From positions 1 to 41,763 of IMG/VR virus record IMGVR_UViG_3300043470_000852: a stretch of 41,763 nucleotides of DNA; one strand, written 5' to 3'. Below the pieces are notes generated by a model that had not been told where the DNA came from, did no database searches, and worked only from the letters and a program-made list of their open reading frames with translations. Origin of the DNA: a virus. Positions 2,064-26,479 of this stretch are shown here, in pieces (the first letter of the stretch is position 1; each line of letters opens with the position of its first letter). The translations under genes were made by a program, and so were the position numbers.

Positions 2064-2795
2064 ATGATACCAGTAGATAGTTTATTGTATAAGATCGATC
2101 AGAAACTAAATAAACTATCAACTAATGAGCACCAACAGATTCAACTAGAAGACAAAATCTTAGCTTTGAATGAAGCTCAGATTAAGTTGATAAAACAAAA
2201 GATTGATGGTATTAGTACTGCTAGTCAATTAGGACAAGATTCATTTAAGAAACGTTATGAAGACTTACAAAGTCTTATAATGAATTACAATCATCAACCT
2301 TTAGATCTTACGTTAAAGAATGTTGAATTGAATCAATGGTGTACATATGTACATCAACTTAGTCCACAATATATGTTCTACATAGATTCATATATACTGG
2401 CAGACAAAGGTAGATGTAAAGATAGAAAGATCTGGATCAATAGAGATCTTGCTAAACATGGTGATCTTCAGTTTATATTAAACAATGATCATTATAGACC
2501 AAGTTTTGAATATCAAGAAACATTCAACTCTTTATCATCAGATGAAATAAGTTATTTTACAGATGGTACATTTACCCCAACTAAAGTTTACATGATGTAC
2601 ATGAGATATCCAGTATATATAAATAAAACAGGATATATAATGTTAGATGGGCAACCATCATTTGATCAAAATTGTGAACTTGAATTATATTTAGAGGATG
2701 AGCTGTTAGACTTAACAGTACAAAATCTAGCAATGTATACTGAAAACCAATCTGCAGTACAAAGTGCAGCTTACAGAATACAAACAAACGAATAA
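2064..2795 (+). CDS. Uncharacterised structural-region protein (243 aa)
   Basis: The function is not recognised. The first 65 residues are predicted helical with regular Leu and Ile (DSLLYKIDQKLNKL onward), resembling a coiled coil. The remainder is mixed and aromatic-rich, with several Tyr clusters (YVHQLSPQYMFYIDSYI; MMYMRYPVYI). No transmembrane segment or enzyme motif was found. It follows the 322-aa gene by 28 bases and precedes a Thr-tailed structural protein by 27 bases, so it probably belongs to the same late operon. A neck, head-fibre or assembly role is possible by position. Start 2064 is the first Met in the frame; the antisense frames here are shadows. Confidence 0.72.
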   Translation: MIPVDSLLYKIDQKLNKLSTNEHQQIQLEDKILALNEAQIKLIKQKIDGISTASQLGQDSFKKRYEDLQSLIMNYNHQPLDLTLKNVELNQWCTYVHQLSPQYMFYIDSYILADKGRCKDRKIWINRDLAKHGDLQFILNNDHYRPSFEYQETFNSLSSDEISYFTDGTFTPTKVYMMYMRYPVYINKTGYIMLDGQPSFDQNCELELYLEDELLDLTVQNLAMYTENQSAVQSAAYRIQTNE

Positions 2796-2822
2796 ACTTT
2801 ATTAACATTTAAATAAATTAAA

Positions 2823-3953
2823 ATGGCTGATTTTTCATTAACCACGTTATTCGTGGTTCCAGTAGGGCAGAGTGCTGTCCCTAGCTCTGGCTCAACACAA
2901 GACCTAACTCCAGGTACTGTGGGAATTTTTAAAAGCGATTATTCTGTAGCTACTGCTTTGAATATTGCTGCTTCTCCTTACTTCTATGTAGCTCAAGGTA
3001 GAACAAACACTTACTTGCAAGGTTCTAAAAGATCTGATAAGATCAAAGGATGTCCTTCAGGATCTGGTTGCAACTCTAACGTAACAGAATGGTACAAAGT
3101 AACAGGATGTCCAACTGCTGCTAATCAAATTACTGATGTAACTGATTTCTTAGTACAATGTGGAGAAAGCATCACGTTAACTTTACGTGGTTTTTCTAGC
3201 TACATCAATACTTTGTATTTCAATGGTTTCACTCGTTCAGTAACTATCCAAGCTCCTTGTTGTGGTTGTGACGAAAATCCATGTGCTGATGTAAGTCCAA
3301 ATATTATTATTGACTTATTGATTGCTAAATTAACTCAACAAGCTCCAGGTAATAACCCTGATAACATTAGCTTCAACACATTCTATACATTTGAAAATGT
3401 AGGTGGAACTATCTTACGTATTACTGGAAAACCATTAACTGTATATGGACAACCTTGTGATATCGCAGCGTTCCCATTTGAATATGATAGATTGTCTTTC
3501 AGAACTTTCGTTTATGCTGGTCCAGCTACTACTGCTGACTTTATCGTAGCGGATGCTTGTAACATTGTTGCTACTGAAACAATTGCACAACGTGCTTCTT
3601 ATCCTACTGGAACATCTGCAGAGATTGCTCAATTAGAGAAAAACTTCTACAGCTACCAAGCAGGTTACTTGAAACACTTATATAGAATGAATGGATACAA
3701 TGAGAACTTTGAGTCTTGGGTATCTAATGGTACTATGTACAACTCATTCTATATCAAATTCAACGAGTATAACAAATCTGAATACCAATGGGGTGATTAC
3801 ATCATGGAAGATTCTACAGTGATTATTGCTGTGCCTCAAGGTGGTAGTAACTTAACTGCTCCATTTGAAGCAATCTTAGAAGCTGCTTTAGGAACTGTTC
3901 CAGATAATAATACTTGTATCACAACTACAACTACTACTACAACTGCTCCTTAA
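2823..3953 (+). CDS. Probable virion surface protein with C-terminal threonine tail (376 aa)
   Basis: This is a beta-rich, Cys-containing protein with CCGCDENPC near residue 145. The last residues are a run of eight Thr ending in Ala-Pro. The N-terminus (FSLTTLFVVPVGQSAVPSSG) has no lipobox or classical signal peptide. Codon use is relatively C-rich at third positions compared with the fibre genes, like the capsid gene, which suggests high expression. Placement soon after the capsid gene suggests an auxiliary capsid or head-decoration protein, but this is positional inference. The Thr tail has the same composition as the linkers in the fibre genes downstream, yet nothing follows it. A stable hairpin lies 30 bases after the stop. 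Confidence 0.75.
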   Translation: MADFSLTTLFVVPVGQSAVPSSGSTQDLTPGTVGIFKSDYSVATALNIAASPYFYVAQGRTNTYLQGSKRSDKIKGCPSGSGCNSNVTEWYKVTGCPTAANQITDVTDFLVQCGESITLTLRGFSSYINTLYFNGFTRSVTIQAPCCGCDENPCADVSPNIIIDLLIAKLTQQAPGNNPDNISFNTFYTFENVGGTILRITGKPLTVYGQPCDIAAFPFEYDRLSFRTFVYAGPATTADFIVADACNIVATETIAQRASYPTGTSAEIAQLEKNFYSYQAGYLKHLYRMNGYNENFESWVSNGTMYNSFYIKFNEYNKSEYQWGDYIMEDSTVIIAVPQGGSNLTAPFEAILEAALGTVPDNNTCITTTTTTTTAP

Positions 3954-10602: not shown

Positions 10603-10637
10603 TAAAAAAATCTTGTTTTGTTGGTTTTACAAGTTTT

Positions 10638-10671
10638 CTCCTCAAGATTTTTCTTGGGGAGTTTTTGTTTT
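10638..10671 (+). terminator. Strong intrinsic terminator closing the fibre cassette
   Basis: CTCCTCAAGA (10638-10647) and TCTTGGGGAG (10652-10661) form a 10-bp stem with one G-T pair and a TTTT loop. TTTTTGTTTT follows. It separates the fibre cassette from the next promoter. Confidence 0.85.
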
Positions 10672-10691
10672 ATAACTAATTTAGTTATAAA
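10669..10691 (+). promoter_or_regulatory. 23-base palindrome, copy 1 (candidate operator)
   Basis: Arms TTTATAACTAA and TTAGTTATAAA are perfectly complementary around a central T. A copy with one changed base lies at 26433-26455. In both places the palindrome ends exactly 24 bases before a TTTG promoter box. It is probably the binding site of a dimeric regulator. It also overlaps the T tail of the terminator. Confidence 0.6.
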
Positions 10692-10715
10692 TAATTCTAT
10701 CTCTAACTAAAATTA

Positions 10716-10748
10716 TTTGGAATATATAAAAACAATTGTTTATCTTTA
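10716..10748 (+). promoter_or_regulatory. Bacteroidota-type promoter for the metallophosphoesterase/tail unit
   Basis: TTTG (10716-10719), 21 bases, then TATCTTTA (10741-10748). This is one base from the TAnnTTTG -7 consensus of Bacteroidota primary-sigma promoters with the -33 TTTG. It lies 28 bases before the start codon and directly after a terminator and palindrome. Confidence 0.6.
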
Positions 10749-10776: not shown

Positions 10777-12000
10777 ATGTCTGAAAATCAACACTTGTTA
10801 TACCAATTAGAAGAGTTATTAACGCAAAAGAAAAGTAAAAAGTTCTATGCTGAAAGATTAGGAATAAGTGAGTTTGAAGTGAGTGAGCTCATGAGAGAAC
10901 TTAAAGAAAAAGATAATGAACAACCTTCAGAGATAGCAAGAAACTATACAGAAGAACGTAAAGTTAATGTTGAAAAAGGTACACTAGAAAGTACAATCAT
11001 ATCTGACTATGAACCTAAAAATGATATTGAACTAGCTAAGCTACATAAGATAAATTTAGATAAATACATCATAACCAACTACTGGTCTAAGATGTTACCA
11101 AGTGGGAAGTTTACTTCCTCAGTCTTTTCAAAACTAAAACAAGCAAAAGATTATTCCCCTGAAGACTTTGCTAAATTTTTACAAAACTACAAACCAAATA
11201 ACATATCAATTGCTAAAGAAAACTATTCTATAGAGAAAGATTATGTAGATATAGAAATATCTTTATCTGATTTTCATTTAGCTAAAAGAACTGTAGATGG
11301 TGATAATAGTCCAGAAGGAAGAGCTTTAAGATATTTTAATGTGGCTCAGTCTTTGATTAACAAAGTGAGAGCTAATTACAATATAAACACTGTAGTGTTA
11401 CCTATATCAAATGATTTCTTTCATACTGATAACTATCAAAACCAAACTACACAAGGTACTCCACAAGATACTATAATGGATTATAGTTCTGAATATGAAT
11501 TAGGATTTGCTATTCTTGTAGATACAATTAACATGTTAAGACAGAATGCCAATGATGTAACTGTCATTCTTGTACAGGGTAATCATGATAGAACTAAATC
11601 TTTTTACTTAGCTCATGCATTAGATGTTTATTTCAAGGAAGATCTTGATGTAGATTTTATCAGAGAGCATAGTGTAGTTAAAGGATTAACATTAGGAAAT
11701 ACATTTATTGGATGGCACCATGGTAACTGTAAGTTAGAAGACCTACCATTATTGTTTGCAACACATCCTCAATATAGTCAAGCATTTGGTAATGCTATCT
11801 ATAGAGAAGTACATACAGGTGATAAACATCACTACATGGCTAAAGAAGTCAAAGGTGTAAGAATACAACAAATGCCTAGTCTTTCAGGAACTGATAGATG
11901 GCACCTAGATAATAACTACGTACATTCAGTAAGAGCTGCCTTAGCTTTAGTATATGATAGTAAACTAGGTAAGATTGCTGAGTTCGAAACAAGAATATAA
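10777..12000 (+). CDS. HTH-metallophosphoesterase fusion (407 aa)
   Basis: Residues about 9-42 form a helix-turn-helix (KSKKFYAERLGISEFEVSEL), and a charged linker follows. From about 160 the protein has calcineurin-like metallophosphoesterase motifs: D165-x-H167 (SDFH), N212-D213-F-F-H216 in place of the usual Gly-Asp, G268-N-H-D271-R, H314-H315-G, and G348-D-K-H351-H352 near the end. The family hydrolyses phosphodiesters with two metals; SbcD/Mre11-type nucleases are the closest general comparison. Metal-binding residues are largely present, so it is probably active. It is the first gene after the promoter and palindrome and precedes ring genes by 2 bases. The HTH could let it bind DNA or dock on another protein. 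A DNA end-processing or host-nucleic-acid role is inferred. Confidence 0.85.
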   Translation: MSENQHLLYQLEELLTQKKSKKFYAERLGISEFEVSELMRELKEKDNEQPSEIARNYTEERKVNVEKGTLESTIISDYEPKNDIELAKLHKINLDKYIITNYWSKMLPSGKFTSSVFSKLKQAKDYSPEDFAKFLQNYKPNNISIAKENYSIEKDYVDIEISLSDFHLAKRTVDGDNSPEGRALRYFNVAQSLINKVRANYNINTVVLPISNDFFHTDNYQNQTTQGTPQDTIMDYSSEYELGFAILVDTINMLRQNANDVTVILVQGNHDRTKSFYLAHALDVYFKEDLDVDFIREHSVVKGLTLGNTFIGWHHGNCKLEDLPLLFATHPQYSQAFGNAIYREVHTGDKHHYMAKEVKGVRIQQMPSLSGTDRWHLDNNYVHSVRAALALVYDSKLGKIAEFETRI

Positions 12001-12002
12001 TT

Positions 12003-12731
12003 ATGGCAACATTAAGAAAATTAGTATCAGATGTTAGAAGTGTCCACAAGATACTTTCTACAGATAGTCTTATTACAGATAGAGCAATTGCATCTGAGAT
12101 AAGAAACAACTCTTTATTACTTATAAAGAGAGAAACCAATCTAAGAAAGCTTTGGGCAACTGATACATTATTTACTACCATTCCTTGTTTGGAAATGGTA
12201 GAGGTATCTATTTCTGAATGTTGTAATTATGTAGATGAATGTACTATAGCTAGAACTAAGTTTAAACTTCCACGTATATCAGAAGGTAATTACCAATATG
12301 TAATACAAGGAGTTTATTCCATTAATGCTATGAGTGGTGTAGGAAAAAAGTTAAAAGAAATAACTATCAATAGATATATAAATCTTTTAAAGCTTCCTAT
12401 AATCAAGAAAGAAGAATACTATTGGATATCTAATGGATATCTATATGTAAACAATCCTTTACTTAAAGCAATTAGATTTGTTGCATTATTTGAAGAAGAT
12501 GTAGAAAATGAAATCATGTATCCAGAATGTGGATGTGGAACTCCAGAATACACTACTGAAGAACTATGTAAGAATCCATTAGATAAAGAGTTTCCTCTTC
12601 CTGGATATTTAGAACAACAAGTACTACAACTTACATCTCAAAAACTTCTATCTACATACTTCAATCTTAAAACTGATACTAGTCAAGAAGGAATAGATGG
12701 TCAATCACCAAACTCAAAACCAACTAATTAA
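12003..12731 (+). CDS. Neck/ring-region structural protein (242 aa)
   Basis: The N-terminal 60 residues are helical and charged (KLVSDVRSVHKILSTDSL, then RNNSLLLIKRETNLRKLW). The rest is mixed alpha/beta with a Cys motif (YPECGCGTPEY, about residue 175) and a helical C-terminus. It is not assigned to a named family with certainty. The sequence style and position before the basic 158-aa and the 324-aa adaptor genes fit the ring/neck proteins of crAss-like virions. Its last base overlaps the first base of the next start codon (TAATG), so translation is likely coupled. Confidence 0.75.
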   Translation: MATLRKLVSDVRSVHKILSTDSLITDRAIASEIRNNSLLLIKRETNLRKLWATDTLFTTIPCLEMVEVSISECCNYVDECTIARTKFKLPRISEGNYQYVIQGVYSINAMSGVGKKLKEITINRYINLLKLPIIKKEEYYWISNGYLYVNNPLLKAIRFVALFEEDVENEIMYPECGCGTPEYTTEELCKNPLDKEFPLPGYLEQQVLQLTSQKLLSTYFNLKTDTSQEGIDGQSPNSKPTN

Positions 12732-13207
12732 TGAGAACAAAGATTGATTGGAGAAGCTCTAGCAAAGACAACTATAATCAGTTCTGCAAAAAACACCCTT
12801 CTATAACTCTTACGTATGATGAGTGGAGAAATATTATCTACACTTACAATGAATTCTTTAAAGAGTATATATTAGAAACAGGTGAGAAAGCAAAACTACC
12901 TTATGGGTTTGGAGAGTTCTCTATCAATAAAAAGAAAAGAAGAAAAATAAAACTAGCTGATGGAAAAGAGTTTATTAACTTACCAATCGATTGGCAGAAA
13001 ACTAAAGAGAAAGGAAAAGTTATTTATAACTTTAATTATCATACGGAAGGTTATTTTTTTGGTTGGATGTGGTTTAAACCAACAGCACGTTTCAAAAACT
13101 CTGACCTATGGTATTTCAAACCTTCTAGACTCACTTCAAGACTTTTATCACACTATCTAAAAACCAGCGACAAGTACCAAAATATTTACCGAGAATGGAA
13201 AAAATAA
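12731..13207 (+). CDS. Small basic conserved structural-region protein (158 aa)
   Basis: The protein is strongly basic, with KKKRRKIK near residue 72, and aromatic-rich (YFFGWMWFKP near 115). The opening MRTKIDWRSSSKDNYNQFCK leads into a helical region. Crassvirales genomes have a small protein of this kind between ring genes, but the function is unknown to me. A basic aromatic protein at the neck could contact DNA in the portal channel. It overlaps the previous gene by one base and lies 6 bases before the next. It is too unlike HU/IHF to call it that. Confidence 0.75.
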   Translation: MRTKIDWRSSSKDNYNQFCKKHPSITLTYDEWRNIIYTYNEFFKEYILETGEKAKLPYGFGEFSINKKKRRKIKLADGKEFINLPIDWQKTKEKGKVIYNFNYHTEGYFFGWMWFKPTARFKNSDLWYFKPSRLTSRLLSHYLKTSDKYQNIYREWKK

Positions 13208-13213
13208 TGAACT

Positions 13214-14188
13214 ATGTCATATTACTATAAATATAATTTTGTATCCCCAGAGCCTGTCTACTCAACAGTTAAAGAAGAACTTAAAAGTTACTTTGATACT
13301 GGTGCAGTGGATGATCTTTTATTTCCTACCTACTTAGATAAGTGTCTTAAGAAGTTAGGAAGAACTACCTTTGTAATAAGTGAAGAAGTCTTATTTATAG
13401 AAGATTACCAAGCTAGACTCCCTGATAACTTTTATGCTGTAAGAGAAGCTTGGATGTGTACAGAAGTTGCAGGATACCCATATCAATCAGCTAATTCATT
13501 CTATTCTCAAGCTGCTTCAGCTACAACTATTCAAGTGGCTCCATTAACTATTGGAGGAACTCCTTGTAATCAACCTGGTTGTCAAGTTCCACAATGTGAT
13601 GGTACATGTATGCCTGTATTAGTACAAGCTGTATATAAAACAAACAACACTGTAGCTAGAGGATTTACTCACGAGTATTTACTTAAGCCTGGTAATATAT
13701 CTGCAAGACAAAACTGTGGAGTGGAATACACTAACAATTGGGACTTCTATGCAGAAGCTCCTCCTATTCATGAATTCACTCCTGGTGCTGCTAGTTATGA
13801 CTCATTTGATATTAGAGACAATAAGTTTGTAACTAATTTTAGAAATGGTGTGGTACACTTATTATTCTATGCTACAGAGTATGATCAAATAGGAAATCAA
13901 ATGATTCCTGATAACTATCGTATTAGAGAATATGTAGAAGCGTTTCTTAAATTCAAGATATTTGAAACTCTTACTAATCAAACTAATGATGAAACTTTCA
14001 ATCAGTTACAACAAAAGATGTTATATCATAAACAAGCTTATGAAGAATCTTACATCATGGCTGAGATTGAAATGAAGAAACAAACTCCTTGGGAGAAGCA
14101 AAGAAGAATTAAAAACGATCTTAATAGATTCAATATGTATGAACTTCCTAACCGTACTAATAGATATGGTAGAAGACGTAATAACTAA
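13214..14188 (+). CDS. Tail adaptor/ring protein, P22 gp4-like (324 aa)
   Basis: The N-terminus is helical (STVKEELKSYFDTGAVDDL) with a conserved-looking DKCLKKLGR. A beta-rich middle carries a Cys-rich insertion with CNQPGCQVPQCDGTC near residue 115-130, and the C-terminus is a long helix ending very basic (RTNRYGRRRNN). In crAss-like phages the gene just before the muzzle encodes a ring protein related to P22 gp4-type tail adaptors that joins the portal to the tube. Position and fold pattern fit that. The four-Cys insertion could bind metal or stiffen a loop. It ends 5 bases before the muzzle gene. Confidence 0.65.
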   Translation: MSYYYKYNFVSPEPVYSTVKEELKSYFDTGAVDDLLFPTYLDKCLKKLGRTTFVISEEVLFIEDYQARLPDNFYAVREAWMCTEVAGYPYQSANSFYSQAASATTIQVAPLTIGGTPCNQPGCQVPQCDGTCMPVLVQAVYKTNNTVARGFTHEYLLKPGNISARQNCGVEYTNNWDFYAEAPPIHEFTPGAASYDSFDIRDNKFVTNFRNGVVHLLFYATEYDQIGNQMIPDNYRIREYVEAFLKFKIFETLTNQTNDETFNQLQQKMLYHKQAYEESYIMAEIEMKKQTPWEKQRRIKNDLNRFNMYELPNRTNRYGRRRNN

Positions 14189-14193
14189 AAACT

Positions 14194-17100
14194 ATGGCTG
14201 ATCAAGAAAAAGAACAAAGTAATATAAGGATAGAAATTAATAGTGGATCTATTGGTTTAAATATGGATCAAACTTTGAACCAGATTAAACCAGGTACTCT
14301 TACATATGCATTAAATGCTGCCTTAGAAAACTTTGATGCAAGTTCTATTAATTATCAAAATGAACAAGGGAATGAACTTTGTATAAGTTTTCCTTCTGGA
14401 TACATGTTAATTGGTAGACACTTTATTGCAGAAAAAAGCAAACATATATTCTTTGTTGTAAATCCTCAACTAGGGATGAGTCAAATAGGATATATGGATA
14501 ACAATGATTGTATCTACCGTACATTAGTAGAAGCTGCATGTCTTAATTTTAATGAGAACAATCCTATACATAAAGTTGTACATAAAATAAGTAATTGCAC
14601 TACAGAAATATATTGGACAGATGGATTAAATCCAAGAAGATATTTAGATATTGAAAATATTCCATATTTACAAACTCCTACTTCAGATCCTTGTGACCCT
14701 ACATATACAAATCAATTAGATTGTAATCAATTAAAAATACAACCTAATTTTAATATTCCACAACTTACTATATCAGATATAGCTAGTGGTGGAGATCTTA
14801 CTGCTGGTACATATCAGTTTGCTATTCAATATGCTAATGCATCTGGTAATCCTTACACATCATATTACTCTGTTACAAATCCTACACCAATTGCTGATAC
14901 GCAATTAACCACAGCTATATTTGATTATAAAGTGGGTAGATCTATAGAAGTTAGTATTACTAATTTAGATACAACAGGGTTATTTCAATATTATAATGTA
15001 GCTGTAATTAAAACAGTTAATAATATTACCACTATAGAATTAGTTGGTACATATTCAATTGAGAATCAAGTTGACACAATAACATATACTGGACAGAATA
15101 ATACACTTATTAATCTTTCTCCATCAGATATATTTGAGAAGTATCCATACTATGATATAGCACAAGATCTTACAGCTGTACAAGATGTTCTTGTATGGGA
15201 TAATCTTACATCTATAGATAGAATTAATTATCAACAAATAGCATCTCAAATAGATTTATTATGGGAGACATACAGAATTCCTTCCAATGAAAATTATGGT
15301 GATGAATTAAATGCTACAAACCTACGTGGATATCTACGTGATGAGGTGTATGCATTTGAGATTGTATTCTTATTAAAGAATGGAAAACAAACAGATGGGT
15401 TCCATATTCCTGGAAGAACATTAACTTATGCTGATTTACAATATCCAGATGTACCAAATACTAATGCTGATTTTATAGGTGAGCCTGATTATATCGATCC
15501 TGTTACAGGAATAGGATATAGTTCTTATTGGAAAATATATAATACAGCTACTGTCATAGGTAATGCTACTGGTCCTAATATTAATAATGCTACACCATAT
15601 CAATATGGTGAGTTTGCTTATTGGGAGTCTACAGAAGAGTATCCTTGTAATGTTGATGTATGGGGTGATCTTGCTGGTAAACCTATTAGACATCATAAGT
15701 TTCCAGATGTTCTTGTAAGTCCTATATTTGAGAATCCTGTATATTCATTAACTCCTGGGTTTCAACCAGTGATGCAAAATAATGCTGTATATCCATTAGG
15801 TGTAAAAGTTAATATTAAACAAATAGAAACACTTATACAAACATCAACAGGTCTTACACAAGATCAAAAAGATGATGTTGTAGGATTTAAAATTGTAAGA
15901 GGTAATAGAAATACAAATAAATCTATTGTAGCTAAAGGAATGCTCCGTAATGTAGGAACATACCAAAGACAAGATCAAACTTTATACTATCCAAACTATC
16001 CATATAACGATCTTAATACAGATCCATTCTTATTAGCAAGTAGTAATTCATATGCTGTATTAGGACAAACAGAACCATGGATGGTTGTATGTACTGAGTC
16101 AGGTGATTATAGTTATTTTGAGCCAGAAACTGGTGAACAAGTAATTAAACAAATGGTTGCTAATGAAACTTATGAATTTTGTTCTTTAACAAGACCAATA
16201 TATTTAAGTGGTAAAGCAACAATAGGTCCTGGTAACTATGATGTGTGGTATGTTAATAATGCATGCGCAGGTGTTAGTTGTTATAAATTAAGAAGTAATA
16301 CTCGTTGGACTAATGATAATCAACCTCTTAAAACTTTAAATTGGGGGGGATGGATGCCTTATCCTTGTGCAGGTGCTATTGGTCCTGTATATGTTCAAAG
16401 ATTAGATTTAAACTCAGTTCCTTTTAAAGAACAAGATTTACAACCTGCTCCTTGTGCAACTAAGCAACCTTTTGTAACACCCCCATTAGGACAGTTTCCT
16501 CCAAATACATTAACTCCTTTTGGAAATGTAGTTCCAGGAAGAGAGTATGGAAGAAGATCACCACTTAATGCATTCTGTGGAGATCCTAAACCACTTCCTC
16601 CTATAACTAGTGATAGTTCTAGATATAGACAAGTGTTTAATTCTCCTGAAACTTCTTTTGCACAACCATTCTTAGGAGATGTTCTTAAGTTAGAAAATGT
16701 AATGTTTGGTGGAGGTAGAGCACATTTTGTCAAAGTGAAAGGTAATGCTAAATATAGACTTCTTTCTAAAGAGGTTCAAGAAGATGCATTAAAAGCATCA
16801 TTTACTATTGGTGGTCTAGATATAACAGCTGTATTTACAGCATACCAAGCATATCTAACTATTTATGTAAATGGTATTACAAGAAAGAATTATGCGTATT
16901 CATTTAACTCTGTAGCTAACTATGATTACTATTCAGATATAAATAATAACACTGCAGATATTAATGGAAATGTTGGTATTAAACAAAGACCTCTTGATTT
17001 AAAATCTTATATGATTCCAGGAGTTCAAAATATTGGAGATGATAAAAACATTAATAACTACCAAAGAGAGTCTTCTATTTATTTAAGAACAAAAGGTGCA

Positions 17101-18639
17101 TTAACTAATTCAGTAGTGCCATTACCATTCCCTGATAAAACACCAACACTTGTTAATTCATTAGGTACATCTTTAATTACAGATAAATCTAGATTCACAA
17201 TCTCTAGTAATATAGATCCTCTTACAGGTAGAAACTATTGTAACACACCTGAGAAAGAACAAGACATTACAACTGTAGTATATTATGCTTCATTGAAAAA
17301 TATATTTGTAAACCAATGGGGACAAATATATTCATATGAAACAATTGACACAGGATTCCAAAGATTTTTTGATAGTGGTTTTTCAAATGATGTAGTGTTT
17401 GGTGGAGATACATTTATTTCTAGATTTGCATACAAAACAAAACTTCCATTCTTTATAGATAATAGAGTGAATGGATTAGATGATAGTGATATATTCTATG
17501 ATGAAATAGGTAACGTAGCTTATCCAAAATTCTGGCATTCTGCTAGATCTATTTTGTATAACTACCAAACAATGACTAACATTATATCAATTAAAGCTCA
17601 CAACTTTGATTGTCCTAGTGATCCTAGTAAAGCTCCTACAACTGTTGGAGGACCAGCTGGTACATATAGAACATTTTATGATGGTAAGTTTTATTTATTT
17701 GCATATGGTATTCCTAATTTTTATTGTGAGACTTCTTATAATTTAAATTTAAGACAAGCATTCAATGATAGAGAAGGAAACTTCTGGCCACATGTATCTA
17801 CAGGTATTCCTGATGATTGGGTACAAGAAGAGTTTACAACAATTGCTTATGATAATACATATTATTATAATGTAACATTCTCTAAACAGAATAAAGAAAA
17901 CTTCTTTTCACATCTACCAGCAGATTGGACTAGTCAATTATGTTATACATATTATCCATTTAGAGCAATCTATTCTGATTCACAAGAACAAAATGCTGAT
18001 ATAAGAGTTAACAATTGGTTAAGTTATGCCCCATTAGCATTATTTGATTTTCCTCAAAACTATGGAAAGCTTACATCATTAGATGGTATTCAGGATAAAG
18101 CTGTACTTGCTAGATTTGAAAACAAATCATTGTTGTATAACAAATTATTAACAATGGATTCTACAAATCCAAAAGCTGCTTATTTAGGAGGAACTAAATT
18201 ATTTGGAGAAACTCCACCTATTGATTTTGCTGAAACAGATCTTGGATATGTAGGAAGTCAGAATAAGTTCTTATTGAAGATACCACAAGGACAAGTAACT
18301 GTAGATGCTAAAAGAGGACAAGTGTTTTTAATAACTAATGAAGGAGCTAAAGATCTTACAGCAGTTGGTTCTGGTGTAAATAGATTTATGACAGATCACT
18401 TAGCATTTGAAATACTTAGATTCTTTCCTAATGTTGATATAGATAATAACTATACTGGAATAGGACTTCATGGTGTATATGATAGTAAGTTTGATAGAGT
18501 GATAATTACAAAACAAGATTATATTCCTATTGATAAAGATGTAAAATATGATCCTATAACTAAAGAGTTTTATGTTGAGTCAATAGTTTATACTAATCAA
18601 CCTATCACTACAAGTACCACGACTACTACAACACCATAA
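14194..18639 (+). CDS. Tail muzzle (tail tube/hub) protein, N-terminal and central part (1481 aa)
   Basis: The start region (GLNMDQTLNQIKPGTLTYAL, then NAALENFDASS) is what I recognise as the beginning of crAss-like muzzle proteins. Muzzle proteins form the distal tube of the short tail and are functionally comparable to T7 gp12. The body is beta-rich throughout, with repeated aromatic strands and no membrane segment or enzyme motif. Late in the protein come GVYDSKFDRVIITKQDYIP and EFYVESIVY. It then ends in TTSTTTTTTP rather than continuing. Sequence that in related proteins seems to follow in the same chain appears at the start of the next ORF, 13 bases on. The protein therefore looks shortened at a Thr junction. 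The large size fits the family. Confidence 0.78.
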   Translation: MADQEKEQSNIRIEINSGSIGLNMDQTLNQIKPGTLTYALNAALENFDASSINYQNEQGNELCISFPSGYMLIGRHFIAEKSKHIFFVVNPQLGMSQIGYMDNNDCIYRTLVEAACLNFNENNPIHKVVHKISNCTTEIYWTDGLNPRRYLDIENIPYLQTPTSDPCDPTYTNQLDCNQLKIQPNFNIPQLTISDIASGGDLTAGTYQFAIQYANASGNPYTSYYSVTNPTPIADTQLTTAIFDYKVGRSIEVSITNLDTTGLFQYYNVAVIKTVNNITTIELVGTYSIENQVDTITYTGQNNTLINLSPSDIFEKYPYYDIAQDLTAVQDVLVWDNLTSIDRINYQQIASQIDLLWETYRIPSNENYGDELNATNLRGYLRDEVYAFEIVFLLKNGKQTDGFHIPGRTLTYADLQYPDVPNTNADFIGEPDYIDPVTGIGYSSYWKIYNTATVIGNATGPNINNATPYQYGEFAYWESTEEYPCNVDVWGDLAGKPIRHHKFPDVLVSPIFENPVYSLTPGFQPVMQNNAVYPLGVKVNIKQIETLIQTSTGLTQDQKDDVVGFKIVRGNRNTNKSIVAKGMLRNVGTYQRQDQTLYYPNYPYNDLNTDPFLLASSNSYAVLGQTEPWMVVCTESGDYSYFEPETGEQVIKQMVANETYEFCSLTRPIYLSGKATIGPGNYDVWYVNNACAGVSCYKLRSNTRWTNDNQPLKTLNWGGWMPYPCAGAIGPVYVQRLDLNSVPFKEQDLQPAPCATKQPFVTPPLGQFPPNTLTPFGNVVPGREYGRRSPLNAFCGDPKPLPPITSDSSRYRQVFNSPETSFAQPFLGDVLKLENVMFGGGRAHFVKVKGNAKYRLLSKEVQEDALKASFTIGGLDITAVFTAYQAYLTIYVNGITRKNYAYSFNSVANYDYYSDINNNTADINGNVGIKQRPLDLKSYMIPGVQNIGDDKNINNYQRESSIYLRTKGALTNSVVPLPFPDKTPTLVNSLGTSLITDKSRFTISSNIDPLTGRNYCNTPEKEQDITTVVYYASLKNIFVNQWGQIYSYETIDTGFQRFFDSGFSNDVVFGGDTFISRFAYKTKLPFFIDNRVNGLDDSDIFYDEIGNVAYPKFWHSARSILYNYQTMTNIISIKAHNFDCPSDPSKAPTTVGGPAGTYRTFYDGKFYLFAYGIPNFYCETSYNLNLRQAFNDREGNFWPHVSTGIPDDWVQEEFTTIAYDNTYYYNVTFSKQNKENFFSHLPADWTSQLCYTYYPFRAIYSDSQEQNADIRVNNWLSYAPLALFDFPQNYGKLTSLDGIQDKAVLARFENKSLLYNKLLTMDSTNPKAAYLGGTKLFGETPPIDFAETDLGYVGSQNKFLLKIPQGQVTVDAKRGQVFLITNEGAKDLTAVGSGVNRFMTDHLAFEILRFFPNVDIDNNYTGIGLHGVYDSKFDRVIITKQDYIPIDKDVKYDPITKEFYVESIVYTNQPITTSTTTTTTP

Positions 18640-18652
18640 TAAAAGATTAACA

Positions 18653-20230
18653 ATGGCTGACGAAAATAAAATACCAGTAGTAATAAGAACGAAAGTTTAC
18701 TTATCAGATCCAGATTATTTTTGTAATAAATCTTGGACCATGTCATATAATTTAAATACTGGAAGTTGGATTTCTTTTCATACTTATATTCCTAATTTTT
18801 ATATAGGAGAAAATAATTTCTTTTATTCAGGACTTAATGGATGTTGTGATGATTCTTCTGCTGGAGGAGGATTTCAAGCTCTTGTTGGAATTATGACAAA
18901 ACCTTTACCACCAAGCACTACAACAACTACTACAGGAGCACCACAACCAACCACTACGCATACCACTACATTATTGTATTGTGATTTAGATGGATTTGGT
19001 GTAACAACAGATTGTGAATTAGATGGAACAGGAGTGATTACAGTTTATCCAACTACAACAAGTACCACCACTGTATGTCTTACACCTACAGATCTAAATG
19101 TATTTACATTTGTTCAAGGATATACAATAGGAATAGATCCTCCAGTTGATTCTTCATTAACTCTTCAGGATGCATGTGATGCTGTACCAGTTGTACAAAC
19201 ATCTTTAAGTCCTGATAATGTAGATATAGTATTAACTTCTTTCTTTGGAGCTACATACACTACGCAAGATGTAACAGCTCTTCCTATATTAGGAGAGTAT
19301 GTATATAATGCAGCATTTATTTATTGTACTTATTTACCAGATGGTTGGTATAGTGTATCAACTCTACCTAATATGTATTCTATTCAAGATTACATATATC
19401 ATATTGTAGATGGTATTATTGTAGAAATATCAAACTGTGGTTGTGAGACTACTACCACCACTACTACATTACCTCCAGTTATTTCAGAATGTTGTGGTAT
19501 ATTATTTACATCAGGTGATGTTGTTTACTATTATGTTAATAGTATCACTGATTCTATACAACCTATAGATGTTCCAGGATATATATCATCTCTAGGAATA
19601 GCTATGACAACTAATAAGCTTTGGTCTATTGATACTGATATACAAGAATGGGATATCACTCTATCTCCATTTAATGCTACATTTAACAGAGCAATTTCTT
19701 TCTCAGGTGGATTTACTACATCATCAGGAATAGTTGCTTTAGATGACACTACATTGATTGCTGTAAATGATGCACCATCTCCACAAGAGGTTACAGAATT
19801 AGACATCGCTACATTAACTGCATCTAACACTATTAAGTTTACATTACAAACAAATAGAGTGGCACAAGGTAATATGTTATATGTACAAACTGGTGAGTTA
19901 TTAATTATCAACAAAGATAGTGTAACATTAGATTATTACATATCAGAATATGACTATGCTACAGGAACACTTTTAGTAGATATTAATGTAGGTGCATTCT
20001 CTCCTACTTCTATATACGAATGTCAGTGTAACATATATGTAACAGATGTAGATGGAAATATTTATGTAATAATTAAATCTAATCCTCAATCAATCATTGA
20101 TACATATAGAAATATTACAGATACATCAAGTATAACTGTAACTGCTTTAAATTCAGCTACTCAAGTAGGAAGCTGTGTGATAAGTTCTATAGCTGATATA
20201 ACAACAACAACAACCACTACTGCTCCATAA
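18653..20230 (+). CDS. Detached muzzle segment fused to Thr linkers and a propeller-like domain (525 aa)
   Basis: The first 80 residues (CNKSWTMSYNL, WISFHTYIPNFY, FFYSGLNGCC) resemble a C-terminal portion of muzzle proteins. Next come a Thr-rich linker (about 87-105), short repeats with GFGVTTDCELDGTGV, another linker, and a Cys-flanked region starting about 148. A region of about 230 residues from ECCGILFTSGDVVYYYVN has repeated strand patterns with internal aromatic/Asp motifs, suggestive of a beta propeller. The end is seven Thr, Ala and Pro. It lies between the muzzle and another muzzle-like segment in one operon, separated by 13 and 2 bases. The likely role is a muzzle-associated appendage. 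The propeller call is tentative. Confidence 0.72.
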   Translation: MADENKIPVVIRTKVYLSDPDYFCNKSWTMSYNLNTGSWISFHTYIPNFYIGENNFFYSGLNGCCDDSSAGGGFQALVGIMTKPLPPSTTTTTTGAPQPTTTHTTTLLYCDLDGFGVTTDCELDGTGVITVYPTTTSTTTVCLTPTDLNVFTFVQGYTIGIDPPVDSSLTLQDACDAVPVVQTSLSPDNVDIVLTSFFGATYTTQDVTALPILGEYVYNAAFIYCTYLPDGWYSVSTLPNMYSIQDYIYHIVDGIIVEISNCGCETTTTTTTLPPVISECCGILFTSGDVVYYYVNSITDSIQPIDVPGYISSLGIAMTTNKLWSIDTDIQEWDITLSPFNATFNRAISFSGGFTTSSGIVALDDTTLIAVNDAPSPQEVTELDIATLTASNTIKFTLQTNRVAQGNMLYVQTGELLIINKDSVTLDYYISEYDYATGTLLVDINVGAFSPTSIYECQCNIYVTDVDGNIYVIIKSNPQSIIDTYRNITDTSSITVTALNSATQVGSCVISSIADITTTTTTTAP

Positions 20231-20232
20231 TT

Positions 20233-21099
20233 ATGTCAAAGATTATAACAATAAAATTGAAACAAGCTGGACCTTCTGCAGGACCATTCAACATATTGGA
20301 TGATCGTGGAAATATCATAGCTGAAAATGTTCCTAAGAAAACTCTTATTAGAGGAGTGAGTTATGAAGTTAATAATAATGTAAATGCTATAATTATAAAA
20401 TCTGTAGGAAATTGTACTATAGAAAATACTTTTAAATTAGAATCATTTGATACTGTAGAGTTTATAAATACAACATACACACAATCTGTTACAGCTTGTT
20501 TATGGAGACACTTAACTAATATAAGACTTTATAATACATTCTATGGAACTATAGAACCATATATTATTGAGTATCCTTTTGCGTATCAATACCAAGATGA
20601 AATATTACAGAATGTAAAAGATTATACAAAAGCATATGAATACTATCCTATATTTGATGGAGTGTTTGATGATAATACAAGAATAGAAACAAATGATAAA
20701 TGGTTTAATAAAGCTATCTTATATAACGGACAGCAGAGTTCTGGTATATTAGAACTTGTAGCTAAACCTCTTCATAACTTACATGCATACATGCAGTATC
20801 CTATATTGAATGCTGAGAGTAAAACTATCACTTATACTAAGAGTGATAACTTCTATCAGTACAATACATTCTGGGCTGCAGAGATAAGTTCTCAGATTCC
20901 ATTATTTAGAACAACTTGTGAAAATCTTTCTATTGATAAGATAGTTAATCAAGCTAATATGGACTATGGCCCTAAGAGCTTTAAGAAAGCAACGCTAAGA
21001 GCAAAAGAATTAAAGGTGAGACATATACTAGATAACAGTTCAACAACTCATCTAGTGTCTCAATTTATAACAGCACCTGCACAAATATCTTATAAGTAA
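20233..21099 (+). CDS. GPFN adaptor fused to the distal muzzle segment (288 aa)
   Basis: Residues 1-75 are a GPFN module (SAGPFNILD near 16; GNCTIENTF near 60). The rest includes ACLWRHLTNIRLYNTFYGT, IIEYPFAYQYQDEILQNVKD, NKAILYNGQQSSGILELV, FYQYNTFWAAEIS and the ending FITAPAQISYK. I recall these segments as the C-terminus of single-chain muzzle proteins in related gut phages. Here they sit on a separate polypeptide with a fibre-type adaptor at the front. Its last base is the first base of the next ATG (TAATG), so the next gene is probably translationally coupled. The virion-tail assignment is good by position; the split is inferred. Confidence 0.75.
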   Translation: MSKIITIKLKQAGPSAGPFNILDDRGNIIAENVPKKTLIRGVSYEVNNNVNAIIIKSVGNCTIENTFKLESFDTVEFINTTYTQSVTACLWRHLTNIRLYNTFYGTIEPYIIEYPFAYQYQDEILQNVKDYTKAYEYYPIFDGVFDDNTRIETNDKWFNKAILYNGQQSSGILELVAKPLHNLHAYMQYPILNAESKTITYTKSDNFYQYNTFWAAEISSQIPLFRTTCENLSIDKIVNQANMDYGPKSFKKATLRAKELKVRHILDNSSTTHLVSQFITAPAQISYK

Positions 21100-23141
21100 T
21101 GAGTAGTGGTAAAGTAAAATGCACATGTGGATGGTCATGGAACAAATCTGATTCTAGTAAGAAAGATATGTACATATGTCATGAGTGTGGTAGAGATAAT
21201 TCTAACAACATGAAAAATGGTGGTTGGCTAGATAGCTATGCTAATGGTGGAACAATGCAAGAACACCAAGAGAATTATAATGATTCTTCTGTGTCATTAC
21301 CAGAAGGATTTGTTGGTATGGGTAATAACACCAAAGGTAGAAACTATTCTCCTGCATGGGGTGGACAATTTCAAATGGGTGGAGTTTTATCTGGAACAGA
21401 TTTAAATCTAACTGAAAATATATTTGGAAACAAAAATCAATATGAAACATATGGTGATGATAGTGCAAGTAATTTAAATACTTTCAATCCACATTATACA
21501 AGAACAAAAGATTCTGTTGATTATGGTATGAATAATTATGATGATGAGTATATGCCTTGGCATGATGTTCAAGTTATAGAAGATGAAGATACAAGAACTA
21601 ATCAAGAAATATTTTCAAACTACTATACTAATAATGGTTTTAATTTTAATGATTATAATTCAGTAAATGAAGATGGTATTAGAAGAATGATGCCTAATCC
21701 AGAAGATTTATATAATGGTAAAAATAAACAAAAAGTAAAAACTGTAGAAAGTGAAGCACCTCCTCCTCGTGCAATTATAACTGGTAGAGGAAATCCTCAT
21801 AATACATTTGCTAATCCTAACACTCCTAATTATCAAATGGGTGGATATGTTTATCCAGTTAACTATGTTCCTCAAGCACAGATGGGTGGTTCTATTCCAG
21901 GAGCTGTAGGTTTCTCATATGCACGTACACAATCTCCTGCTCCTAGCAATGGGAAGTATGCAAAGAAAACAATGGCTAGTGCACAAGAAGGTTTAAATCT
22001 TGGTCCAATAATTAAAGATAATTCATATAAAATAAAAACTGTAAACTCTGATCCAGTTAAACAATGGACTTTAGATTATATTAATTCCCCTAAGTATAAA
22101 GAAAGATTAACTAAATCTGGATACGAAAATGTACCAAAGGAAATTAGAATTAGAAGTGGTAATGTAAAAAATACAAAGATTGAACCAATACCTAATGAAG
22201 CTTATGAAATGAATAAGATGTGGGATTCTGGTGACTTTGATAAATATAGTAGTCATTATAATTTAGATGAAAACATAATACATTTAAATGAAAAGAATGA
22301 TGCACTCCTACATAAAGATATATACAAAAATTCTAAGTTTACATCACCTACAATAAATGAAACTGAGTCACATGAACTTGGTCATGCTGAAGTACAAAGA
22401 TTAGATCCTACAGGAGAAAATGATTTTGACTTTAGATTAAATAAAAAAGATGTAGATAATTTAATTAAGAGAGGTGGTAGATCAAAAGGTATAAATGAAC
22501 ATGATCAAGATCCATATGAAAATAAAGCTGATTTAAATTCTTTTAGATATAATTTAAAACAACAAGGAATATATGATGCAGGTAAAGAAGATTTTAATGA
22601 AGGGCATTTAAAAAAAGCAAGGAAAACATTTGCAAAAGATCGTTTGTTAAAAAACTATTCAGATAAAGATTTAATCTGGCTAATGAATAATATTGCACAG
22701 AATAAACAACCTGAACAAGAAACTTATGTAGCACAGAATGGTCAAGAGATGAAATTCTATCAAGAGGGATTAGATTGGAAACCTAAGAGCATTAGTAAGA
22801 ATGGTGGATGGTTAGATAGCTATGAAGATGGAGGAGTTGTTAAAGATGATATGGGATATTGGAATCCTGATAATTGGGGAAGTCCTGTTGAGATAGGTTC
22901 TAATAAAATAACAATGGAAGGAGTAGATCAACCACTGTTAGGTATATCTGATACTGGTGATACTAAACTAATGAAACCAGGAAAGAATTATAAGTTCAAA
23001 GGAAAGAAGGTAACTGAATATCCTATGGCTCAGAATGGATTAAGACAAGAACAAAAAGGTTTGGTTAACTTAGATAATCTAACTAACTTTACAAACTATA
23101 ACAAACCACAACCAGGTGGATGGTTGAATAAATATAACTAA
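21099..23141 (+). CDS. Cargo-type virion protein: zinc ribbon, GGWLDxY motifs and HELGH metallopeptidase (680 aa)
   Basis: The N-terminal zinc ribbon has Cys 8, 10, 27 and 30 (CTCG, 16 residues, CHECG). A GGWLDSY motif follows at 41-47, recurs at 569-575 and appears as GGWLNKY at 673-679, right at the C-terminus. The middle is Asn/Gly-rich and probably disordered. Around 325-540 lies a zincin-like domain with H425-E-L-G-H429 and E474 (YENKADLNSFRY) as the likely third ligand. The family would be a phage polyvalent-type metallopeptidase. The gene lies between the muzzle segments and two other cargo genes, where crAss-like phages encode proteins carried in the particle. Proteolysis of virion proteins on ejection or of a host target is inferred. 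Confidence 0.78.
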   Translation: MSSGKVKCTCGWSWNKSDSSKKDMYICHECGRDNSNNMKNGGWLDSYANGGTMQEHQENYNDSSVSLPEGFVGMGNNTKGRNYSPAWGGQFQMGGVLSGTDLNLTENIFGNKNQYETYGDDSASNLNTFNPHYTRTKDSVDYGMNNYDDEYMPWHDVQVIEDEDTRTNQEIFSNYYTNNGFNFNDYNSVNEDGIRRMMPNPEDLYNGKNKQKVKTVESEAPPPRAIITGRGNPHNTFANPNTPNYQMGGYVYPVNYVPQAQMGGSIPGAVGFSYARTQSPAPSNGKYAKKTMASAQEGLNLGPIIKDNSYKIKTVNSDPVKQWTLDYINSPKYKERLTKSGYENVPKEIRIRSGNVKNTKIEPIPNEAYEMNKMWDSGDFDKYSSHYNLDENIIHLNEKNDALLHKDIYKNSKFTSPTINETESHELGHAEVQRLDPTGENDFDFRLNKKDVDNLIKRGGRSKGINEHDQDPYENKADLNSFRYNLKQQGIYDAGKEDFNEGHLKKARKTFAKDRLLKNYSDKDLIWLMNNIAQNKQPEQETYVAQNGQEMKFYQEGLDWKPKSISKNGGWLDSYEDGGVVKDDMGYWNPDNWGSPVEIGSNKITMEGVDQPLLGISDTGDTKLMKPGKNYKFKGKKVTEYPMAQNGLRQEQKGLVNLDNLTNFTNYNKPQPGGWLNKYN

Positions 23142-23142
23142 T

Positions 23143-26100
23143 ATGAAGGCACAAATTTTAAAAATTGCAGGAGTTAAATCTGAGAAGGAGTTCTATAAGA
23201 AATATCCATCTGAAGCAGCATTCATGAAAAAGCATGGTAAAGAGTTTAAGAAAGCTCAATCATCTAATGCAATAGATAAAGCACAGAACTATGGTAATCT
23301 GAATGATACTAATAATAATGGTGTTCCAGATTTTCTAGAAAACATAAATAGTATGAATGATCCTAGATTTGGACAAACTGCTAATTATGCAAATACTCAA
23401 GGATATGGATATACTCCTCAGGTTAGTCCTATTGGTAGTAATTTAAAATCTTCAGGATTAGCTCAACTTCCTACACAATTACCTACAGCAAAATTACCTA
23501 CAGCAAAAGAATTAAATGGTAACCCTAGTGATAAAAAAGGTAGTGGTGCAATGGATATGTTTGGTAAAGCAGTTGGTTTTCTAGGTGATATTAATCAATT
23601 AAATCAAGAAAGTAAAGCAGCAGAAGAATTAACAAAGAAATATGAAACTTGGGCTGATGTTTCTGATGTTGTATTAAGAGCTAAAAGATCAAATGATGCT
23701 GTGCCTAGACCAAAAAATAAATGGGTTAGTCCAGATGATAAAAGATTTATTGCTAACACTAATGAATTATATAATACACAAGGAAGAGGAACTGATATAT
23801 TAAATGTACAAAATGGATCTTTCATTGGAGGTAATCCAACAGAAATACAAAACACATATGCCCCTAACAATACATTATATGATGATCTTGGATATGCACC
23901 TTTGCAAGATGAAGATCAAGTTAAAGCATTTCAAACTGGTGGAGGATTTGGAGAATGGTTTGGAAAAATGAATGGTGCATTAGGTGGAAGTGCTACAGGA
24001 GGATTCATGGGTAACTTTGGAGTGAGTAGTCCTTTTGCAGGTATGATATCTGGTTCTAATAATTCTGCAGAGGGTAAAAAGTGGGGTAAGATTGGTAGTG
24101 CATTTGGACCAGGTGTAGGATTGTTAGCTGAACAAGTTGCAACAGCTTTTGATAAAAATCCAGGTAGACAAAGAAATGCAACAAACAGAATGGATTTCAA
24201 TAATAAATTGATGGGTCAGGTAGATGGTGCAAATAACATCACTACTGGTATACAAGGTATGGGTGTTGCTCAGGATGGTACAGAACTTCCTGCATATGAA
24301 GAAGGTGGATATATGAATCCTGAATATAATCCACAAGTGATTGCAATGTTTGGTGATCATAATGCTGATGACTTTGCTGACTATGCACATAAATTTAGAG
24401 CTGGTGGACATTTAAAAGAATACACTGCTCCTAGTGAAAGAGCTATGCAAACTTATGAGAATGGTGGAAGAATGAATTCTTATGCTATGGGTGGACAACT
24501 TCAAACTCATTGGGGTGGAGAAGTTAATCCTATAGCTTACAATCCTTACTTACCAGGATCTGGTGAAATAAGTATGCTTAGTGGAGCATCTCACGATAAT
24601 GGTGGCATTGGTATTAGTTATAATGGTGGAGAAGAAGACTATCAATCAATGGCTGAAAATGGTGCAAACATGGGAGCACAAGTAGAAGCTGAAACAGGAG
24701 AGCCTATTATTGAAATGGCAGAAGGTGGATCAATGGGTTCTAATACATCAGCTGTGATATTTGGTAATATACCATTTACTAAAAAAGTAGCACAGGCTAC
24801 AGGAGATGAAGCTCTTATTAAACTTGCTAAAGAAAAAGATGGTAAAACATATAAGAAACTAATAGCTGATTTAGCTGCACCACAAAAAAGAGCAGAACAA
24901 AATAAAGTTAAAGCTTCTGAAATAGCAAATGATGCAGACACTACTAAATGGGGAGCACTTGATTTAAAGACTGCAGAGATGATGGAATATGGTGGTGACC
25001 AAACACAAAAAGATTATGCTGATCTAATAATGAAACTAGCTAACTTACAGAATGCTACACAAGAAGTGAAGAAAGAACAATCATATCTTAAAGGAAAAAA
25101 CATTAGTGCTGAAGCATTAGGTAAAGGTAAAATAGAAACTGATTATGATCCTATTACTAAAGATGCTGAATTAGAAAATCCATATGCTAAACATGGAGCG
25201 TTCTTAAGAAAAGCTCAGAACAGTGCTACTGTTGGAGATGATAAAGATTATGTAAGTAAATATGGTATCACTCCTTGGAAAGGAAATACATCTAAAGGAA
25301 ACAAATATGGTAAAGCTACAGCTTCTTCATTTAGTGCAAAACAATGGGATGAAGTAGCAGACAAATTAGGATTCAAAGGAAAAGGAAACAAAGAGTTTCA
25401 AGAGTTTCTTTTAAACAATCCTGAAAGTGCTCCATTGATTAAAGCTAGACATCAGAATTTATACGGTAAAGACACACCTATGATAGATGAGAAGTTAGGT
25501 TATGGTTGGGCAGCTGATCAATTATTATTACCAAAGCCTGCAGAAATTCCTAAAGATGATAAAACTAATGTACCTAAAGAAGAACCTAAAAAACCAACAG
25601 ATATAATTCCATATGAAAGAAATAAGATAGTAGATTTCGCTAATATGATTTCTCCATTTTTTCAAAATAATGATTTACCTGATATTGATCCACGTCAGTT
25701 TGCTAAAGAATATATGGCTATGGCTCAGAATACACCTTATCCTGTACAAGCTCAACAATATGCTCCAGAGTTAGATCCTGTATATCGTGTAAGTTATGAA
25801 GATGTAATGAATCAAAACACTGCAGACTTTAGAGATGTAGAAAGACAACTTGGAAATAATCCTGCTGCATTAGCTGGTTTACTTGCTAATAAATATAAAG
25901 CAAACCAAGCAGTTAAAGGAGAAGAGTTTAGAACTAACCAAGCTATTGAACAACAAATATTCGGTGGTAATAGAGCTAAGATAAATCAAGCAAGAGGTAT
26001 AAATATGCAACTGTTAGCTGATCAAAGAGATAAACAATTAGAAGGAGAAGCTATTACAAATAAAATTAATCAAGAAGCTATAGGATCTATTGGTGATAAG

Positions 26101-26439: not shown

Positions 26440-26455
26440 CTAATTTAATTATAAA
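26433..26455 (+). promoter_or_regulatory. 23-base palindrome, copy 2 (candidate operator)
   Basis: Arms TTTATAACTAA and TTAATTATAAA lie around a central T. It is identical to the 10669 copy except for one base, which weakens one pair. It overlaps the stop codon of the upstream gene and ends 24 bases before the TTTG box, exactly as copy 1 does. Confidence 0.6.
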
Positions 26456-26479
26456 GAATTACCAAAATTGATTATTAGT

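Follow-up and report, generated by a model that had tools for sequence, protein, structure and literature searches.

Tandem palindromic operators at predicted late promoters of an environmental crAss-like phage clade, and a candidate winged-helix protein for its passage from replication to assembly

Introduction

What is a near-perfect 23-base palindrome doing, twice, a fixed distance upstream of two promoters in a phage genome, and what might read it? The question arises from a linear IMG/VR record of 41,763 bases (IMGVR_UViG_3300043470_000852, positions 1 to 41,763; hereafter the window), in which a first reading of the letters alone (the sequence-only reading) had noticed the palindrome and its promoter as one element repeated at two transcription-unit starts, and had suggested either an activator site or a phage-encoded switch for late or virion genes. 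From the operators, their fixed positions, their conservation, the paired changes of their arms and the prediction of a winged-helix protein, all taken from sequence, we here argue that a small DNA-binding phage protein very probably docks at the palindrome, and that it would turn the tail and virion RNA polymerase operons on and the replication operon down.

The crAss-like phages, to which the window is assigned below, are described as the most abundant phages of the gut (PMC10172136, in excerpt). According to excerpts of PMC8375218 and PMC10136315, their late genes probably use the host RNA polymerase and a transcriptional regulator gene is among the early ones; neither an operator nor a protein for a late switch is given in these excerpts. 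In phiCrAss001, the middle and late genes are presumed to rely on the host enzyme, two RNA polymerase subunits being middle and one late, and the early genes include an unnamed transcriptional regulator (PMC8375218, in excerpt). Among titles and opening lines of abstracts, in a search from which subscription papers mostly fell out, no paper dealt with such a palindrome or operator code; PMC12118408 speaks, in the part consulted, of invertible host promoters, and the word 'promoter' is absent from the main text of PMC7886860 and PMC10172136.

Results

Within G001, a record of 113,562 bases, the window has an identical counterpart over 41,761 bases. On its plus strand (29099-41763, open at the window end), it carries the gene for a giant virion RNA polymerase of at least 4221 aa, recognized by its match to 6vr4 (E 2.3e-22 over 2708-3378), which we take to be the phi14:2 RNA polymerase, and by a DxDxD motif, GSDFDID at 3315. 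A Pfam scan that covered 75 of the 130 open reading frames of G001 (129 listed plus the giant one) further revealed a Crass_capsid major capsid protein (E 3.3e-28), an IHF/HU-like protein (Bac_DNA_binding, E 1.8e-8) and a portal (P22_portal, E 4.3e-15); a 674-aa gene product without a Pfam match was taken for the terminase from gene order. Judged by these marks of Crassvirales membership, the window is part of the 113.6-kb genome of an uncultured crAss-like phage. A tRNA scan of the window found none, and Rfam gave no match in it at gathering scores. A structural protein of the window matches the Cellulophaga phages phi17:2 and phi4:1 and csAssE-Sib, and the best annotated relative for the structural, capsid and 854-aa proteins is Leptolyngbya phage Lbo-JY46, at 28-35% identity. 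Three window proteins (78-830, 14194-18639 and 26519-29083) are closest to this phage, which was deposited as a cyanobacterial phage, an unexpected kinship given the Bacteroidota-type promoters. From the promoter boxes and some of the related phages we infer a Bacteroidota host, though the best annotated relative is a phage of Leptolyngbya, a cyanobacterium.

Inspection of the window placed the palindrome at two sites on the plus strand, 15,764 bases apart, as first described. The first copy (TTTATAACTAATTTAGTTATAAA, 10669-10691) is complementary at 11 of 11 arm pairs; the second (26433-26455) differs from it at one base, is complementary at 10 of 11 pairs, and overlaps the end of the upstream gene (23143-26439), stop codon included. 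When up to three mismatches were allowed, these were the only two matches in the window, compared with none in 100 dinucleotide shuffles. The spacing was also as reported by the sequence-only reading: TTTGGA follows after 24 bases in both copies (at 10716 and 26480), and its TTTG is separated from the -7 box by 21 bases at copy 1 (TATCTTTA, 10741-10748) and by 20 bases at copy 2 (TACATTTG, 26504-26511). Promoters of Bacteroidota carry a TTTG-like -33 box, and the sigma-A pattern of such a box followed after about 19-21 bp by TAnnTTTG is found behind both palindromes, with -33 boxes at 10716-10719 and 26480-26483, a -7 box matching in full at copy 2, and one with A in place of the last G at copy 1. 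With the flavobacterial -7 box, of the form TAnnTTTG, positioned at -12 to -5 (PMC9723704, in excerpt), transcription is predicted to start near 10753 at the first promoter and near 26516 at the second. The latter start lies about three bases 5' of an ATG, and the RNA polymerase unit may thus be nearly leaderless (26504-26519); in L168 and L173, among other relatives, the leader of this unit is longer and has an ACATGT-like inverted repeat.

The unit behind copy 1 (10777-26439, plus strand, its extent estimated from gene order) comprises an SbcD-like exonuclease and virion structural and tail genes, and that behind copy 2 is the virion RNA polymerase unit, whose first gene (26519-29083, plus strand) encodes an 854-aa protein with no Pfam or PHROGs match. 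These units and their promoter boxes bear on the idea that the palindrome belongs to a promoter read by the RNA polymerase of the phage itself. The virion RNA polymerase of crAss-like phages does transcribe early genes, but the same sources ascribe late genes to the host enzyme (PMC8375218, PMC10136315, both in excerpt), the units here hold virion genes, and full -33 and -7 boxes follow the palindrome at fixed spacing, all of which makes a phage-polymerase promoter exceedingly unlikely. A role as RNA, in a hairpin, terminator or stability element, is scarcely credible: copy 1 can fold (-5.7 kcal/mol), but copy 2 has no stable fold, and copy 1 itself lies between a strong terminator-like hairpin (-15.1) and the promoter, so that it should rarely be transcribed. 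Tandem hairpins, the second of which resembles an intrinsic terminator, occupy 10611-10661 (plus strand) between the upstream unit and the first palindrome. The 12-base loop of the first hairpin, TTTGTTGGTTTT, is nearly invariant (one letter off in 1 of 20 relatives) while its stem co-varies, and the two hairpins together show both-sided changes at 13 of 16 pairs; this loop word was found at the hairpin place in seven of nine genomes tested, as a one-letter variant in the other two, and additionally elsewhere in two genomes.

The conservation of the two heads was next examined in the best 80 of 426 exonuclease loci and in all 28 loci of the 854-aa gene, with L107 and L118, too near a contig end to show the region, left out of the comparison. 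In 12 long records (110-119 kb, G001 included) the palindrome, at up to three mismatches, occurs twice in 11 and once in one, whereas the reversed pattern has no match in the same records. All 23 places fall at the two heads, 12 before the exonuclease and 11 before the first gene of the RNA polymerase unit. A scan of IMG/VR yielded 63 stretches with the palindrome, a number that includes near-duplicates, distinct versions being counted separately. Of these, 61 stand at the heads of three homologous units, namely 36 tail-unit heads (32 scored and four, L031, L043, L045 and L056, placed by context), 24 RNA polymerase heads, and the head of the regulator gene described below in one (L051); L005 and L032 have no gene in common with the window's phage. 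One genome, G033, has the palindrome three times, at its regulator, tail and RNA polymerase heads. At all 56 scored heads (32 of 32 exonuclease and 24 of 24 RNA polymerase heads), 24 or 25 bp separate the palindrome from the -33 box (TTTG or NTTG), and the promoters differ in length by no more than two bases. Thus, the confinement to operon heads and the constant spacing that the sequence-only reading had proposed to look for were both seen in relatives. Its denial of a recent duplication was borne out as well, since the flanks of the two heads differ and each head is conserved separately.

Some heads depart from this pattern. The tail head has lost the palindrome (O1) in G015 and retains no more than an O2-like core in G018. 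In L043 and L056, the -33 box is not TTTG and the site seems to be followed by a different gene; these may have yet another first gene behind the operator. In four of ten compared relatives, the exonuclease (10777-12000 in the window) is only about 31% identical, the next two downstream genes being 65-80% identical, which suggests a replacement of the exonuclease gene with the operator left in place. Third sites, found at the tail-fibre unit in G010, G003 and G028, are single palindromes with another promoter spacing, about 16-17 bp by eye, and constitute weaker evidence.

The host type of the promoter boxes, and the fact that a phage could exploit a host factor, raise the alternative that the palindrome is the site of a host regulator borrowed by the phage. 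Among one genome each of 84,980 species, however, the exact 21-base pattern was found in only 18 stretches (a scan for exact matches, in which variant operators would be missed); these lie in scattered phyla, one in Bacteroidota, and none is followed by a promoter 24-25 bp away. We thus consider a borrowed host site very unlikely. A host regulon, of which none was seen in this exact-pattern scan, was likewise rejected as a likely explanation.

Alignment of O1 from the relatives (35 distinct 23-mers at the tail head and 21 at the RNA polymerase head, 54 distinct overall) delineated an operator core, TAAY-N7-RTTA, with invariant TAA and TTA arms and the adjoining pyrimidine and purine in nearly all versions, an invariance that is partly built in, as TAAY/RTTA was imposed when the 23-mers of 15 sister records were cut; those of the distant G013, G014, G016 and G028 were placed by their distance to TTTG, not by score. 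In the window, the core is TAACTAATTTAGTTA at 10673-10687 (centre at about -73) in the O1 of the exonuclease/tail unit, and TAACTAATTTAATTA at 26437-26451 (centre at about -72) in that of the virion RNA polymerase unit, both operators resting on the palindrome search, the relatives and the tandem scan described below. The arms change in pairs, as the sequence-only reading had anticipated: TAACTAA/TTAGTTA gives way to TAATCAA/TTGATTA or TAACTGA/TCAGTTA, and TAACCAA/TTGGTTA is also found. Over the 54 O1 versions, 430 of 594 cells are complementary compared to 393 +/- 7 when right arms are shuffled, a value reached in 0 of 5000 shuffles, the excess being inflated by shared ancestry since the test ignores relatedness; for this dyad count and for the offset counts below, the site 1 sets exclude G015 and G018, in which no O1 is recognizable, and the site 2 sets exclude L184 and L193, whose gene start lies on TTG and whose head was not recovered. 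A relaxed 17-base pattern with two mismatches was barely enriched in 14 sister records (77 forward versus 67 reversed matches), so that sister-clade sites are told from noise by their position and not by their sequence alone.

The stretch between palindrome and -7 box, which the sequence-only reading had described as not conserved, fits that description only in part, for it harbors a second, weaker core at both heads. At copy 1, this second operator (TAACTAAAATTATTT, 10704-10718, plus strand) lies 31 bp after O1, at about -42, and overlaps the -33 box; at copy 2, O2 (TACCAAAATTGATTA, 26460-26474, plus strand) lies 23 bp after O1, at about -49. Each has seven of eight core letters and was found both by sliding the core and in the tandem scan. 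Among distinct RNA polymerase heads, the second core (at least seven of eight letters) forms a single peak at +23 bp in 29 of 30, with none at other offsets from 14 to 34; among 63 distinct tail heads it is found at +22 in 26 and at +31, mainly in the window's own clade, in 44, with offsets of 19 in three and 26 in two. The tandem offsets of 22-23 and 31 bp amount to about two or three helical turns.

A position-blind scan of G001 for tandem cores beside TTG returned four sites, these being the two window heads, a tail-fibre head and the replication-arm head, compared with a mean of 0.00 per genome in Markov-2 controls (0.12 in one genome; eight replicates each). Across 11 genomes, the scan recovered the tail head in eight and the RNA polymerase head in nine, the misses being both heads of G015, the tail head of G028 and G018, and the RNA polymerase head of G016. 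Its other matches were the tail-fibre head in G003, the reverse of the RNA polymerase head in G010 and G014, and one unplaced site each in G010 and G015. Of the six best single cores in G001 (dyad at least 6/7), two lie inside genes. The tandem operators of the tail-fibre site precede a collagen-like/tail-fibre unit (9404 of the reoriented G001 record, outside the window) and have no clear -7 box at the right distance.

At the replication-arm head of G001, also outside the window, the tandem runs directly into the -7 box (TAATTATCTTTG). With that box set at -12 to -5, the operator centres fall at -41 and -18, inside the promoter, and on this predicted numbering the position of the tandem is that of an occluding site. 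The tandem was found at the same place in three of seven genomes examined (G001, G010 and G009) and is missing in G003; the 420 bases read in G013, G014 and G028 showed no core, but the mapped gene start may not be the head of the unit there. A search of IMG/VR with the left arm of the first operator, its R, and the Y of the second operator left free retrieved 18 stretches, 11 of them distinct. The free left arm reads TAAY in all 11 versions (TAAC in nine, TAAT in two), R is G in eight and A in three, and Y is T in six and C in five.

A candidate for the protein that reads these operators is encoded outside the window, at 53890-54264 of the reoriented G001 record, by the gene that opens the portal/capsid unit. 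The 124-aa product has a weak helix-turn-helix match below the Pfam cut-off, and its AlphaFold model (mean pLDDT 86) shows four helices and a two-stranded wing. Fold matches of the model are general winged-helix proteins, T4 MotA among them at middling scores, and those among viral models are crAss-like phage proteins, phi17:2 included. Across 45 aligned orthologues, the presumed recognition helix shows no variation at residues I69, N70, N71, I72, S74, K75, L76 and K77. The gene is present in seven of ten compared relatives; the other three are incomplete records from which the adjacent portal gene is missing as well. A PDB sequence search with the regulator profile gave no match up to E 1, and tblastn against 50,697 annotated phage records none at E 0.01; no sequence relative of known function was found for the regulator, and its fold match names no function.

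The regions upstream of this gene were compared in the best 80 of 211 and the best 80 of 145 regulator loci. Of 97 distinct upstreams, 26 contain the operator core (dyad at least 5/7), located exactly 23 bp before the -7 box in 23 and exactly 20 bp before it in three, when a core at any position is expected in 5.5% of resampled sequence; the other 71 are without the core as defined. In the window's own clade the regulator promoter has no palindrome, and the link to the operator comes from relatives. Another conserved element, CATAATATRGCA, is found upstream of the regulator gene (in L163, upstream of 2302-2673, minus strand, the regulator gene of G001) and is possibly an early promoter or the site of a second regulator; CATAATAT is present in 81 of the 97 distinct upstreams and recurs once in G001, on the minus strand before the gene for a 1153-aa protein.

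Might another phage protein read the operators, such as the HU/IHF-like neighbour of the winged-helix gene or a protein without a recognized domain? The HU-like gene adjoins the regulator gene, many small phage proteins are without a family, and a DNA-binding protein could sit among the open reading frames beyond the 75 of 130 scanned in G001. HU-like proteins, however, usually do not read a dyad this strictly, and the only other helix-turn-helix-like protein among the 75 (27542-27835) has no match in the ten relatives compared. As related phages also have the palindrome in the promoter of the winged-helix gene itself, we regard a different reader as distinctly improbable. It is the 124-aa winged-helix protein that we believe, with fair though incomplete confidence, to be the phage's switch, activating late promoters through O1 and the second site and occluding the replication promoter.

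The same regulator and operators could act with the opposite sign at the late promoters, as a timer that represses them early in infection and is displaced later. Repressors also bind palindromes near promoters, the second site at +31 bp of copy 1 overlaps the -33 box, and late promoters with recognizable -33 and -7 boxes may need no help. Yet O1 is centred at about -72 at both heads, and the second site lies at about -49, upstream of -33, at 29 of 30 distinct RNA polymerase heads, and likewise at the tail head in sister clades; the replication-arm head has its sites within the promoter core (-41/-18). The regulator gene, moreover, heads the portal/capsid unit. Repression of the late promoters is thus the less probable sign, though it deserves to be kept in mind, and activation is the one retained in what follows.

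Discussion

Altogether, the comparisons support the interpretation put forward by the sequence-only reading. The phage-encoded switch for late or virion genes that it had suggested fits the position of copy 2 at the head of the virion RNA polymerase unit, and fits the presence in related phages of a conserved winged-helix gene with an operator in its own promoter.

In the mechanism that we propose, the palindromes would be the strong members (O1) of tandem operators for the 124-aa winged-helix regulator, a dimer of which would read TAAY-N7-RTTA through half-sites one helical turn apart. Dimers bound at the late heads to O1 (about -72) and the second site (about -49, or -42 at copy 1) would lie on the upstream side of the -33/-7 promoter and would recruit or stimulate the host RNA polymerase at this Bacteroidota-type promoter. 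A dimer just upstream of -33 with a second one two to three turns further upstream is the geometry of class I/II activators. At the replication-arm head, the same tandem at -41 and -18 would shut the polymerase out by occlusion. The regulator gene of sister clades has one operator, centred at about -43, that reaches into its -33 region and would provide feedback, the sign of which is uncertain; centres at -43 and -42 are compatible with activation and with repression alike. Produced along with the head genes, the regulator would move the phage on from replication to the making of tails and fresh virion polymerase: as the portal/capsid unit begins with its gene, it would appear after replication and then open the tail and polymerase genes. 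Binding of the regulator to the operators, activation as opposed to repression, timing, and the use of host RNA polymerase are the steps that we infer here, and the timing would need changing if the regulator were early in this phage too, as is the unnamed regulator of phiCrAss001.

The logic of such a switch has a counterpart in phi29, an unrelated virus that is not known to have a virion RNA polymerase. In this Bacillus phage, one protein, p4, acts at several sites, repressing the early promoter A2c and activating the late promoter A3 through host RNA polymerase (PMC4461284 and PMC11476376, in excerpt). The likeness in our case, the same operators at a promoter to be shut off (-41/-18) and at late promoters (about -72/-49), is one of sequence only, and p4 is, by the title of a reference cited there, an N-hook protein, in contrast to the winged helix predicted here. 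T4 MotA is a phage transcription activator with a winged-helix activation domain and is matched by fold both as 1bja (Z 7.8) and in the sigma appropriation complex 6k4y (Z 8.1 to chain M, presumably MotA), although fold matches at such Z are common. MotA binds DNA through a second domain and, together with AsiA, recognizes a -30 site; this two-domain architecture does not apply to the regulator, the model of which has one folded domain in 124 aa. Phage Mu C, for which we know of no role at replication genes, can be compared by function only. It is a late-gene activator that binds upstream of the -35 site of host promoters (PMC4461284, in excerpt).

Winged-helix regulators of the MarR and Fur types resemble the regulator at the level of the fold, MarR chains being among its middling matches. 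Such regulators have AT-rich palindromic operators and, in the MarR family, dimerisation helices at both the N- and the C-terminus; the model of the phage protein shows none at the C-terminus, where its confidence is low, and the PDB search gave no sequence match. Among phage proteins, S0A071 of Cellulophaga phage phi17:2 (120 aa) has a similar predicted fold (E 8.7e-4, TM about 0.7), with 22% identity in the fold alignment, and is probably the product of gp075, a 120-aa gene that comes first in the terminase/portal arm. A profile comparison of gp075 with the regulator was not significant, and the first 100 kb of phi17:2 contain no perfect 23-bp palindrome. No known regulator family could be assigned to the regulator by these comparisons. 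Its similarity to the phi17:2 protein in fold and gene order hints that it is ancient in crAss-like phages.

In its broadest form, our proposal is that a single 124-aa winged-helix protein, first in the capsid operon, runs the replication-to-assembly switch of a whole environmental crAss-like clade through tandem TAAY-N7-RTTA operators, shutting off the replication arm, feeding back on itself, and opening the tail and virion RNA polymerase operons; we give this general version an even chance of being right. If it is true, each infection would ration the polymerase packed for the next one. With a candidate protein, an operator code at the level of bases, a set of controlled units that includes the virion RNA polymerase, and operator positions that predict the sign of control, the analysis provides a testable model of how such phages may pass from copying their DNA to building particles.
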